Source: an uncultured Ulvibacter sp.
GTDB lineage: Bacteria > Bacteroidota > Bacteroidia > Flavobacteriales > Flavobacteriaceae
Reading direction: 5' to 3'
DNA: 64,000 bases
Assembly (NCBI GenBank): GCA_913063405.1
Contig: CAJXZB010000014.1
Span: 1 to 64,000, forward strand
Position 1 is the stretch's first letter, and the number at the start of each line of letters is the position of its first letter. The translations under genes and the position numbers were made by a program. Under the pieces are notes generated by a model. It saw only the letters and a program-made list of their open reading frames with translations, ran no database searches and had not been told where the DNA came from. Positions 6,816 to 35,370 of this stretch are shown here, in pieces.

Positions 6816-7727
6816 TTATTTATTTTTCAATTCCTTAAGTCGATCCATTAAATGGGGCAGATTGTTAAGTATCTTTACATTGGACGGAATTTGTTCTTGA
6901 TCCACTATTTGTGCCTTATTTCCCAATAGCCAAAGAGCGCAATTTTTCTTCTTAGAAACTATTTCTTGGTAGTTGTCGATATAATCGTAAATGCTTTTGC
7001 CTTCTGGTAACATAGTAACATAGGATACGAAAATTATATCACCTTGTAATTTTGCAAGTTTATCTAGGCTATTTAAAGGGATATTTCCTCCTAGGTAAAT
7101 CGTTCTGTAACCAGCAGAAATTAGTTTGTAATTTGTATATAGTAGTCCTATTTCATGGATTTCTTCGTAAGGAAGAAATAAAACAAAACGCATATCTCCA
7201 GCCTTTTTGAAATTGCCTACAGCCCATTCTATATTTACAATTACTTTTCTTCGTATTAATTCAGAAATAAAACTTTCATGGCTCGGTTCAATTGTTCCAG
7301 TTTGCCATAGCATTCCTATATCCGTGAGAAGAGGAATAAATACTTCAAAGAAAATTTCGTTAAAAGTCTTTTCTGAAAGATAGTCCTGGTAAATTTTTAA
7401 AAAAAGATGCTCGTCAAAATCAAACATTGCTGTTTTTAGTACCTTAATCGCATATTCTTGTTTACTTGCAACGGCTTTTCCCTCTACCAGATTTTCTATT
7501 TCGTTTTCACTTAGTCCTGCAATTTTCGAAATCTTATGACCGTCATTATATAAAAAAGTAACATTAAGTAGCTTTTTTAGGCTATCTAAGTTGTATGTTC
7601 TTATGTTAGTTTCAGTTCTTTGAGGACATAGAAGATCATAGCGTTTTTCCCATATGCGTATCGTATGTGCCTTAACGCCACTTAAATTTTCCAGATCCTT
7701 TATACTGAACTGAGATTTAACATTCAT
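6816..7727 (-). CDS. MerR-type HTH regulator with B12-binding domain (CarH/LitR-like)
   Basis: 303 aa. An N-terminal MerR winged helix (about 6-75: SIKDLENLSGVKAHTIRIWE) is followed by a helical B12-binding cap and a Rossmann-type cobalamin domain. The cobalamin-ligand motif ExHxxG is present as EIHEIG (189-194, His191), so B12 binding is likely. CarH proteins repress carotenoid genes in the dark when adenosylcobalamin is bound and let go in light. The cap motif Wx9EH reads W141-x9-E151-S152, so the final His is replaced by Ser, a departure that could alter photochemistry. It sits directly upstream of crtI on the same strand, which fits control of the pigment operon. Confidence 0.88.
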   Translation of the reverse strand: MNVKSQFSIKDLENLSGVKAHTIRIWEKRYDLLCPQRTETNIRTYNLDSLKKLLNVTFLYNDGHKISKIAGLSENEIENLVEGKAVASKQEYAIKVLKTAMFDFDEHLFLKIYQDYLSEKTFNEIFFEVFIPLLTDIGMLWQTGTIEPSHESFISELIRRKVIVNIEWAVGNFKKAGDMRFVLFLPYEEIHEIGLLYTNYKLISAGYRTIYLGGNIPLNSLDKLAKLQGDIIFVSYVTMLPEGKSIYDYIDNYQEIVSKKKNCALWLLGNKAQIVDQEQIPSNVKILNNLPHLMDRLKELKNK

Positions 7728-7849
7728 AAGTGAACTACTAGAATTACTTGGTCAAGGTAGTAAAAGACATTGGAAAAGACAACAATCCATTAAAAACCAA
7801 GTAGGACACTAGACTGCTTCGAGTTAAACTCAAAATTTGGAGTAAATTG

Positions 7850-7933
7850 TACCCGGAATGGGACTTGAACCCACACGCCCGTAAGGACACATGGCCCTCA
7901 ACCATGCCTGTCTACCAATTCCAGCATCCGGGT
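7850..7933 (-). tRNA. tRNA-Leu (anticodon GAG)
   Basis: 84 nt on the minus strand. The acceptor stem ACCCGGA pairs with TCCGGGT, followed by discriminator A. The anticodon stem CATGG/CCATG encloses the loop TTGAGGG, giving anticodon GAG. The long variable arm (GTGTCCTTACGGGCGT region) is typical of leucine tRNAs, and the T-loop GGTTCAAGTCC is canonical. The CCA end is not encoded. Confidence 0.97.
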
Positions 7934-8076
7934 AGGGATTTGTCAATCTTATCTAGTAGAAATTGACATTTGGGTAAAAAAGTTAAACCACTGGGGATTA
8001 GCCTTTTGTGACCTGGCTGGGGCTATTTCATTAGAGTTAACTTGTTTGTAATCAATATAGTTCATTATGTTTTGTG

Positions 8077-8400
8077 TCAAATTTGTGTCAAAACAGCTCT
8101 TAGCGTATTGACATTTTTGTCTATAGCGGCCATTATTTTGTTTACTTCTGCACTTTTTTTATAGTTTAAAGTCGGTTCATTTAAATCATTTGATGATGGA
8201 GCATCATCACGAATGAGCCAATTCAAATCGATGTCGGGTTGAATTGAAACAACTTTCAGTATTAATTCGAAAGTTGGAGGTCGATGATTGTTCAGGACTT
8301 TATTCAATGTGCTGAAACTTTCTTCAATTACTTCCGCAAAATCGCTCTGATTATGCCCGCTACGCTTGATTACCTGCTTTAATTTATCGCCAAATGTCAT
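8077..8400 (-). CDS. XRE-family helix-turn-helix regulator
   Basis: 107 aa. An N-terminal Cro/C1-type helix-turn-helix covers about residues 5-60: KLKQVIKRSGHNQSDFAEVI, then LNKVLNNHRPPTFELILKVV. The C-terminal 40 residues are helical without a recognised domain. It is transcribed away from the 113-aa gene at 8500. The 100-bp space between holds repeated TATCCGT words, a small dyad and a striking 10-bp-phased AAACA array, a plausible operator. It may repress its neighbour and itself. Typical of mobile or phage-derived regions, but no integrase is nearby. Confidence 0.8.
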   Translation of the reverse strand: MTFGDKLKQVIKRSGHNQSDFAEVIEESFSTLNKVLNNHRPPTFELILKVVSIQPDIDLNWLIRDDAPSSNDLNEPTLNYKKSAEVNKIMAAIDKNVNTLRAVLTQI

Positions 8401-8464
8401 TTAGAATGATTATAAATTATCCGTATATAGACGATTTTATCCGTTTATTGTCCATACTTGGATA

Positions 8465-8518
8465 TATATTTGTAAACAATTAGAAACAGCTATAAACAAT
8501 TGGAAACAAATTTAAACA
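8465..8518 (+). promoter_or_regulatory. Promoter -7 box followed by five AAACA words on an exact 10-bp period
   Basis: TATATTTG (8465-8472) fits TAnnTTTG. Then AAACA begins at 8474, 8484, 8494, 8504 and 8514, exactly one DNA turn apart, running across the putative transcription start and the TTG start codon at 8500. Upstream, TATCCGT occurs twice (around 8419 and 8439), and TCCA-TACT-TGGA forms a small dyad (8451-8462). I infer an operator for the divergently encoded XRE protein. Not tested. Confidence 0.45.
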
Positions 8519-8841
8519 AAAAATCTAAGCAAAAGAATGTGCAGTTGCATAAAGAGCGATTAATCGCCTTTCAAAAGTTTTATAGTCTAACTGAAATAGA
8601 AGCTGAAAGCACAATGAAACTGCTAGATGATAAGCTAAAGTACGGTTACAGCGAAGAGATTGTTAGTAGAGCAAAAAAAGATAATTACGAAACTTCCAAT
8701 CAGGTGGCTTGGAAGGACAGTTACAGGTCACTACTCAACAGGTTCGATACTACTATTGAAAGCTGGAAAGGATTCAACCTACTAGCGTTCATTGTTATAG
8801 CTCTCAAAAAATTTAAAAAGAAAATAATAGAAAAAGTCTAA
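8500..8841 (+). CDS. Hypothetical protein, 113 aa
   Basis: Not recognised. The protein is Lys-rich and mostly helical, with a hydrophobic patch near the end (FNLLAFIVIALKKF) and a basic tail (KKKIIEKV), which might touch the membrane. The only plausible start in this frame near the promoter is TTG at 8500; the first internal ATG (about codon 41) would remove the first third. It is divergent from the XRE regulator and probably controlled by it. An imperfect inverted repeat (8856-8963) begins 15 bases after the stop. Confidence 0.5.
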   Translation: METNLNKKSKQKNVQLHKERLIAFQKFYSLTEIEAESTMKLLDDKLKYGYSEEIVSRAKKDNYETSNQVAWKDSYRSLLNRFDTTIESWKGFNLLAFIVIALKKFKKKIIEKV

Positions 8842-8855
8842 ATCATTTCAGATTA

Positions 8856-33881: not shown

Positions 33882-35370
33882 TTAATTTATTGTGAACAAG
33901 AATTCCATTTGCAAAGAAATTATGATTTCCTTCTACTTCTGATAGATTATAAGTTGTTTCCATTCTATCCGTCATTTGTATGTTAATTATTTTAACCTCA
34001 CTCATTTCATTAGTACTTTTCAATAAAAAACATATATCGTTCTCTTTTAATTGACCCACTTCGATTCCATAATTTTCTTTCGTTTTTAACGGATCAAAAG
34101 AGCACCAACCTTTACCTTTTACCATATATGGATGATCGGTGGTATTTATATTCTGTATTGAATTATCAAACTCGATTTGTACTAAATTATCGTGAACAGG
34201 AGTATCAATCTTTAAGACCTTTTTACTTTGAACTAGACCAGTTTGTAAGTTATATGTTTTGACTGAATTTCCAACTTTAATTGTTTCGATACTTTTTATA
34301 GATCCATCCCCCATTGAGATCTGTGTTCCTGCTACAAAACAATTATATTTCTTTTTAGCTTGTTGAAGATTCATCCCTTCTTTAATCTCGTGCTGAATTC
34401 TCAACGCCCTTGTTTGCATTATTTCCAACCCTCCCGTAGCCTTAAAGATAAAATAAGATGCAGAAACACCCCATCCTATTGGACCGCCAAACATTCCTAT
34501 TCCAGTTGCAAAAGAATCACTTCCAAATTCATATCCTCCGATATAATTATTTTTATAGCTATAATATCCGAATAAAATACTTGCACCACCAACAAATCGT
34601 CCAGCTGATCTTAATCCAGTTAGGGTTTCTTTGTTCATAGTTTGCACAATATCTGACAAACCTACTGTATTAGAATATGACATTCCAATTGCTAATGCAG
34701 AAGAAAGTTTACCAATAGCTCCAATAACTTGCATTCCCTCGCTTCTATCATTCCATATTTCCGCAGTATAATCTGTTTTTTGAGTATTTCCCCCAACAAC
34801 TTCGGTACCATCGGCACCCATTACAAGTTTGCCTCCTCCTGTTAAAGATATTCCTCCTCCTTCATTCTTGTTGTTGTTAGTTGTATTTCCATCAGAATTA
34901 TCACCCTCTTCAACTTTCTTTGGGCCACTTCCTTCAGATATAAAAGATCCAGGGTTACTAGTGATGCTATTTCCTACCAGATTCGAAGAAGCCCCTTCAA
35001 CCTTATCAGCATCAAATTCAGAAAATGTAACACCGGATGTTTGCGGTCTAAATCCACTCGTGAGATCGCCAACTGTGGAGGAGCCAAAGGTCATTCTTCC
35101 ATCTGGGTCAAGGTAAAAGATTGGATTATCAAAGGCATAGGTGTAAGGAGAGTGTCTCCTCATTAGTTCTGCCAATGGATCAAGGTTCATCCAGCGCCCT
35201 ATGGAAGCATCATAATTTCTTGCTCCAAAATCGTACCATTCCAATCCTAATTCTTGGTTTTGTTCTTTACCGCCAAACTTATAGGCTTGTGCTAGTCCAT
35301 TTCCATTACTGGAAACCACGTTATTATACCCCTTTTGTTTTAAGCCAAAAGGATAGTAGTCTAAGGTCAT
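33874..35370 (-). CDS. Orphan RHS-core fragment with C-terminal HINT (pretoxin) domain
   Basis: 498 aa. It lacks an N-terminus and signal peptide. The first 95 residues are the last part of an RHS core (YYPFGLKQKGYNNVVSSNGN, ARNYDASIGRWMNLDPLAEL, FDNPIFYLDPDGRM), then a Ser/Asn-rich linker. Residues 150-340 are a hydrophobic, Gly-rich tip of unknown type. The last 150 residues form an intein-like HINT domain: catalytic Cys in YNCFVAGTQISMGDGS, TTDHPYMV with the TxxH block, and NHNFFANGILVHN at the end. Only KLND follows, so no cargo remains after the cleavage site. The start codon is nominal, at the edge of the 436-bp repeat. An apparent displaced cassette. Confidence 0.75.
   Translation of the reverse strand: MTLDYYPFGLKQKGYNNVVSSNGNGLAQAYKFGGKEQNQELGLEWYDFGARNYDASIGRWMNLDPLAELMRRHSPYTYAFDNPIFYLDPDGRMTFGSSTVGDLTSGFRPQTSGVTFSEFDADKVEGASSNLVGNSITSNPGSFISEGSGPKKVEEGDNSDGNTTNNNKNEGGGISLTGGGKLVMGADGTEVVGGNTQKTDYTAEIWNDRSEGMQVIGAIGKLSSALAIGMSYSNTVGLSDIVQTMNKETLTGLRSAGRFVGGASILFGYYSYKNNYIGGYEFGSDSFATGIGMFGGPIGWGVSASYFIFKATGGLEIMQTRALRIQHEIKEGMNLQQAKKKYNCFVAGTQISMGDGSIKSIETIKVGNSVKTYNLQTGLVQSKKVLKIDTPVHDNLVQIEFDNSIQNINTTDHPYMVKGKGWCSFDPLKTKENYGIEVGQLKENDICFLLKSTNEMSEVKIINIQMTDRMETTYNLSEVEGNHNFFANGILVHNKLND
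34925..35360. repeat. 436-bp RHS-core direct repeat, copy 1
   Basis: Practically identical to 36969-37404 in the same orientation (offset 2044). I see one difference, which changes a Val to Ala. The repeat starts on one side where the two toxin tips diverge (after FISEGSG) and ends on the other at YYPFG, where this copy runs into a palindrome and copy 2 continues into more RHS core. Confidence 0.9.

Follow-up and report, generated by a model that had tools for sequence, protein, structure and literature searches.

What does a run of five AAACA pentamers, set at exact 10-bp steps beside the gene of an XRE-type repressor, do in the DNA that carries it, and which protein would read it? The run lies in a stretch of 64,000 nucleotides from an uncultured Ulvibacter sp. 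(hereafter the window). A first-pass annotation had placed the pentamers at 8474, 8484, 8494, 8504 and 8514, and all five coordinates hold; its claim that the 10-bp steps bring every site onto the same helical face is supported. The array had also been described as lying over a promoter and over the TTG start of the opposite gene, which we call the partner. The TTG at 8500 is indeed within it, and in two close Altibacter-type loci the same reading frame opens with TTG at the same place, as judged from mechanical ORF starts. The promoter elements proved to lie outside: the array adjoins the -7 box on its downstream side and covers the inferred transcription start. In the available part of the published account, the -7 consensus of Flavobacterium psychrophilum is TAnnTTTG, at -12 to -5 (PMC9723704), and this box position would put the start near 8477. 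The array consists of direct repeats, without the inverted-repeat make-up of a dyad operator for an XRE dimer (Table 1).

Table 1. Features of the locus and decamers of four related leaders.
Feature	Position in the window	Strand	Basis
tRNA-Leu, beyond the XRE gene, left of the array	7849-7933		
Attachment-site-like remnant, agccttttgtgacctggctggggct	8000..8024	.	By eye, compared with relatives
11-bp direct repeat pair at the XRE stop codon, TTTGACACAAA x2	8071..8092	-	
XRE/HTH_3 repressor gene, 107 aa, divergent	8077..8400	-	HTH_3 match; phrog_21356 over 1-106
Spacer, presumed site of the XRE operator; by eye, TATCCGT occurs at 8418 and at 8438	8409..8464	.	
Sigma-A -7 box of the partner promoter, flavobacterial type, TATATTTG	8465-8472	+	Sequence, published consensus
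Five tandem decamers, TAAACAATTA GAAACAGCTA TAAACAATTG GAAACAAATT TAAACAAAAA	8473..8522	+	Sequence, lag 10/20/30 statistics
Partner gene, 5' part (phrog_18835-type early regulator), truncated, TTG start	8500..8706	+	
IS4/5-type DDE transposase gene, 3' end, and IS end; multi-copy here	8706..8850	+	Longer relative is a DDE transposase
L049 leader decamers, TACACACAAC TACACATAAT GACACATACC AACACAAAAG			
L094 leader decamers, TGTAATAAAA TGTAAATAAG TGTAAATATA			
L107 leader decamers, TACACATATA TACACAAATG TACACAGATA			
L103 leader decamers, TGTCAGAAAT AACAAATATA TGTCAAAAAT AATCAAAAAT			

Taken by itself and after full look-elsewhere correction, the window array is striking but only borderline against chance. 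Three in-phase AAACA units gave 3 overlapping matches in the window and 0 in 100 dinucleotide shuffles, and the same pattern has 4 matches in the 3.16-Mb genome, 3 of which are the window array and the fourth a short-period repeat on a different contig. When any 5-mer at any exact step of 6-25 was allowed, with near-perfect microsatellites excluded, no other five-copy array was found in the window; a total of 12 random first-order Markov windows contained one (0.083 per window). In a score of matches at lags 10, 20 and 30 the array is the top place in the window (20; runner-up 6), and that score is the highest of the 18 leaders introduced below (p 0.0003, the floor for 3000 shuffles). Its significance comes from relatives.

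The genes beside the array place it in a phage setting. The window XRE protein matches 11 phage records, all from Flavobacterium (31.8% over its length), and no peptidase domain was among its Pfam matches. The opposite gene, first annotated as coding for 113 aa, turned out to be a chimera of a truncated partner and, from about 8706, IS sequence. Relatives of its first 68 codons were found in 3 other genomes (397 searched in the family), all three with a divergent XRE gene alongside, and the tail matches six further places in the genome, mostly contig ends. The junction falls within about 8700-8712, so that the partner is broken after about 68 codons, and the IS-side DNA repeat ends at about 8850. 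Since the tail is the end of an IS transposase, the gene is either a shortened partner joined to an IS end or an assembly join. The IS4/5-type 3' end is found on contigs C22, C29, C30, C41, C60 and C8, and the element breaks the assembly. Copies on C30, C41 and C60 have exactly 77 bp in common at contig ends, which we infer resembles an assembler k-mer overlap; the fusion could be an assembly artefact, joined at an IS copy. Elsewhere in the window, positions 6816-7727 encode a MerR-type regulator with a B12-binding-type domain, whose neighbours look by eye like carotenoid-biosynthesis genes.

Judged from its gene content, we interpret the window locus as the relic of a Duneviridae-like prophage switch of XRE repressor, partner and LuxR-like regulator. 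In this module the XRE gene diverges from a partner of ~90-110 aa, which is followed by a predicted transcription regulator of the LuxR-like type in the same operon (phrog_10300). This gene order was found in an Altibacter relative and in two Duneviridae phages of Flavobacterium, 6H and laban6-1, and the full three-gene order is present in L017, L057 and L058; the window retains XRE and the 5' half of the truncated partner, with no third gene beside it. The relatives were reached via the third gene, and searches with third gene and partner then led to further phage contigs and prophages. Matches to phrog_10300 occurred in 368 of 397 genomes, mostly owing to the LuxR domain, and a single locus among them, in G178, was both new and useful; direct searches with the partner found none in viral contigs or phage records. 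Sixteen of 19 partners match phrog_18835, a family whose function is not assigned. Pfam gave no convincing family for the partner, and a sequence search against solved structures no convincing match. Its structural model has four helices, all-alpha and without strands (mean pLDDT 84.8), and no solved structure matched the fold in Foldseek at E<=0.001 (best Z 3.6).

The discovery set comprised 18 leaders, those of the window and 17 relatives in which the pattern was first noticed, aligned on the -7 box TAnnTTTG. Outside this count stand duplicates (L090, L091, L105, L114), near-duplicates (L041, L100, L104), a locus with no leader (L102) and two with no convincing partner (L059, L126); L108-L113 and L116-L125 were analysed apart. 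We found that identical 5-mers recur in the 18 leaders 50, 45 and 32 times at lags 10, 20 and 30 (5.8, 3.7 and 2.1 expected; z 13.0, 15.4 and 14.8), and 0-4 times at lags 9, 11, 19, 21 and 29. The next highest counts were 15 at lag 7 (z 2.6) and 12 at lag 31, 11 of them from L096. The summed score was 125 against 9.4 +/- 4.3 in shuffles (maximum 27 in 3000) and, leaving out the window, 105 against 9.0 (maximum 27 in 1000). Individually, 14 leaders reached p<0.05; L040 and L096 were not significant, and L058 and L097 had zero in-phase matches. In a control set of 188 further TAnnTTTG leaders, drawn from the window and the loci above, the maximum score was 8, and none reached 10.

The signal lies mostly in the first 40-50 bp past the box, and upstream bins hold far fewer matches. 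In most relatives, direct repeats spaced by multiples of 10 bp start immediately past the -7 box and continue for ~45 bp, over the inferred start site and into the first codons, the start codon standing 18-20 nt past the box in 11 of 18 loci and 29 nt past it in 3. The most regular of these arrays is that of the window. The first-pass annotation had proposed that the array be sought with the homologous gene pair; when this was done, the phasing was present in 16 of 18 leaders at lag 10, 20 or 30, but AAACA itself is not kept. The unit varies by phage (ACACA, TGTAA, TACAC, TATAAC, AAATAAC), and decamers within one phage are modestly more alike (0.486) than decamers taken from different slots of different phages (0.411). 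The intrinsic bending by A-tracts that had been suggested for the array does not stand as a shared function, because most units (TACAC, TGTAA, ACACA, TATAAC) are not A-tracts.

Eight loci (L132, L138-L142, L160, L166) were found after the score had been fixed. Their scores summed to 26 against 3.0 expected (maximum 20 in 1000 shuffles), and 4 of the 8 were individually significant at p<0.01; L132, L142 and L160 scored 0, and L166 had p 0.08. The L138 leader is 0.96 identical to a discovery leader and nearly the same as that of L100, and without it the sum was 20 against 2.8 (maximum 14). The held-out signal is chiefly lag 30 (19 of 26), and lags 10 and 20 contribute 3 and 4 matches; for comparison, lag 11 gave 9, of which L160 supplied 8, and lags 12 and 18 gave 7 each. 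With its 8 matches at lag 11, the L160 leader may be an 11-bp-step variant of the array. In L138, L139 and L140 the units are AAATAAC, AAATATTAAT and AAATAGTAAC, each identical at two positions 30 bp apart; that both copies differ together argues for a co-evolving reader.

Seventeen related Flavobacterium-type loci, which are close relatives, gave a weak 24 against 7.7 (maximum 23 in 500 shuffles), with 8 matches each at lags 27 and 31 as well; L108-L113 were not significant (5 against 2.6, p 0.17), and ten distant g91 loci had no signal (1 against 1.5). In Flavobacterium phage 6H (L127; Duneviridae, Unahavirus), gp63-gp61 have the gene order of the module with homologous XRE and partner, and the leader repeats TTATGACA at 20 bp, whereas the window differs in its five AAACA decamers, in the truncation of its partner and in the absence of a third gene. 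The 6H leader scores 4, which several places equal, and a place at 34069 scores 7; the lag score is therefore unfit as a genome-wide detector. The strongest 10-bp periodic repeat of this phage, near 34069, lies outside the switch.

Two other origins of the phasing were rejected. Chance in A-rich DNA was ruled out by the shuffles, the 188 controls and the held-out loci. A codon or protein-repeat artefact was ruled out because 10 is not divisible by 3, because arrays straddle the start codon, and because the non-coding leader alone has a lag-10 identity of 0.547 (other lags 0.24-0.41); in addition, the L104 sequence has a conserved leader block in a frame other than that of the partner, where a sequencing indel is possible. 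Another reading is that the repeats act in mRNA, as a leader with a 10-nt repeat that a phage or host RNA-binding protein binds or that favours ribosome loading, and so exert translational control. If the inferred start is right the array is mostly transcribed, and it covers the start codon; furthermore, in the part of the study available, adenines upstream of the start codon aid initiation in Flavobacterium johnsoniae (PMC6847099). We consider this reading improbable: there is no obvious reason in single-stranded RNA for multiples of 10 (10, 20, 30) in which one slot is taken up by the start codon, 15 ordinary A-rich control leaders lack the pattern (maximum score 2), and the four bases before the start site inferred from the available text of PMC9723704 are in phase too (0.486 vs 0.333).

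If the array is read as DNA, the most likely reader on sequence comparison is the partner (phrog_18835). Leader similarity followed partner similarity once XRE was controlled (partial correlation 0.49, 0/3000), in a set of 25 loci that includes six held-out loci and omits the window, and it did so in 20 loci as well. With the partner controlled, the leader had no residual correlation with XRE (0.09, p 0.17 in 25 loci; 0.075, p 0.22 in 20 loci), whereas the spacer tracks XRE (0.34, 0/2000 in 20 loci; weaker in 25, 0.157, p 0.04). Compared with partner residues from 17 on, the 18 non-coding bases gave a non-significant 0.11 (p 0.17, 20 loci) and the non-coding leader a weak 0.18 (p 0.033, 25 loci); for residues 44-64 the value was 0.22 (p 0.004, 25 loci). 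In the pair L093/L104 the array is kept (0.81) and the partner is similar (0.76), while the spacers share few 5-mers (0.12). Physical linkage of neighbours alone could give an array-partner correlation, and since linkage could explain part of it, the partner is favoured as the reader rather than proven.

The XRE repressor, to which the first reading of the locus had looked, could instead read the decamers as half-site direct repeats and so extend repression from dyads in the spacer over the start site. It is the module's only intact regulator in the window, where the array is intact, and by eye the L094 leader unit TGTAA(AT) resembles half-sites of the spacer dyad. We nevertheless regard XRE as an unlikely reader: when each protein is controlled for the other, leader similarity still tracks the partner but no longer XRE, with the linkage caveat applying here too, and L092 and L098 share an array type (0.69) despite an XRE identity of only 0.31. 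XRE is also less likely because inverted repeats are found in 5 of 18 spacers (L093, L094, L098, L101, L115), each matched by at most 1/60 shuffles, and these would be expected to be its operators. The inverted repeat of the window spacer was not significant (60/60 shuffles equally good), and the spacers of L057 and L103, shortened to 45 and 16 bp, allow no fair test. The operator-like array does adjoin the XRE gene, as first described, with XRE as its less likely ligand. Just upstream of the XRE start (8401-8420), TTTAGAATnATTATAAATTA recurs by eye where the operators of relatives differ and is perhaps the core XRE promoter.

Repeats are also present on the attachment side. At the XRE stop codon a lag-11 pair with at least 7/9 matches occurs in 14 of 17 loci and pairs at other lags in at most 4 of 17, with L092, L103 and L106 of the 20 loci short of sequence; these 11-bp pairs are possible integrase arm sites. 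The leader unit was no closer to the attachment-side repeats of the same phage than to those of other phages (p 0.30), and the idea of one protein at both places is unsupported by this comparison. The same value counts against an integrase or recombination directionality factor in the broader proposal that the reader is some other protein, be it that of the LuxR-like third gene, the integrase or a host factor. The third gene, as a predicted transcription regulator in the operon, speaks for that proposal, which we rate as marginally less probable still than action in mRNA. As a separate observation, a TCAC(A/G)A-type stretch lies ~40-100 bp past the XRE stop in the window (8000-8024) and in L049, L057, L093, L096, L101 and L107; it resembles tRNA 3' ends by eye and is perhaps the attachment site.

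On balance, we favour the view that the array is a cooperative operator that spans the start site and the opening codons, filled by one subunit per 10 bp, probably read by the partner and autoregulatory in the manner of Apl; the operator idea itself is probably right. The array would be a multi-site operator belonging to a Duneviridae-like prophage and located in the leader of its first early gene, on the lytic side. A small DNA-binding protein would fill it cooperatively along one helix face, and the bound subunits would shut off or tune their own early promoter by blocking the open complex or early elongation. With the partner as reader, the operator would be autoregulatory, as with Apl of phage 186, and the XRE repressor would instead use the inverted repeats of the spacer. 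As the partner is truncated in the window, the array there is probably a relic, usable only by the intact XRE or by a resident relative.

It has been reported, in the part of the source available, that the operators of Apl in coliphage 186 are direct repeats 10-11 bp apart, bound cooperatively at the early promoters of the switch (PMC7498355). The partner would resemble Apl, and also P2 Cox and lambda Xis, all recombination directionality factors, as a small early protein with presumably one monomer per site, and the leader sites share the Apl/Cox-type trait of direct repeats that are spaced by roughly a helical turn and placed at early promoters. They differ from those of Apl in a spacing of 10.0 in most loci, in lying across the start site and the opening codons, and in a divergent rather than convergent switch; the searches gave the partner no sequence-family or fold match, and the attachment-side comparison gave no support for a matching array there (p 0.30). 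Head-to-tail cooperative oligomers with about one subunit per turn of DNA are described for Streptomyces BldC and for RdfS of ICEMlSym(R7A) in the available portions of two papers (PMC5859096, PMC11963761). The likeness to BldC is the oligomer on direct repeats, although BldC repeats are 9 bp at whiI and RdfS sites are without a consensus in what was available of PMC11963761. Both are wHTH proteins, whereas the partner is predicted to be all-alpha with four helices. Lambda CII, a small helical phage regulator, recognises TTGC-N6-TTGC, two direct repeats at a 10-bp step, and activates from two repeats at -35; the array differs in having 2-5 repeats downstream of the -7 box.

In the literature available to us, from which subscription papers are mostly absent, there was no account of this array or of lysis-lysogeny operators in Duneviridae or other Bacteroidota phages. 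The phase-spaced arrays at the start of the early genes suggest that a group of temperate phages of Flavobacteria and their relatives use a little-known switch protein, each subunit of which would read one helical turn. More tentatively, phrog_18835-type partners may form a new family of switch proteins that bind head-to-tail on decamers at 10.0-bp steps over their own start site and first codons; their unit specificity would drift by phage and give each prophage an immunity-like address. The array is thus a candidate operator, visible in sequence, for a protein family of unassigned function, and because it spans phages with different units, the reader protein and its DNA code are directly testable. 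A step of 10.0 bp rather than about 10.5 predicts a defined contact between adjacent subunits.
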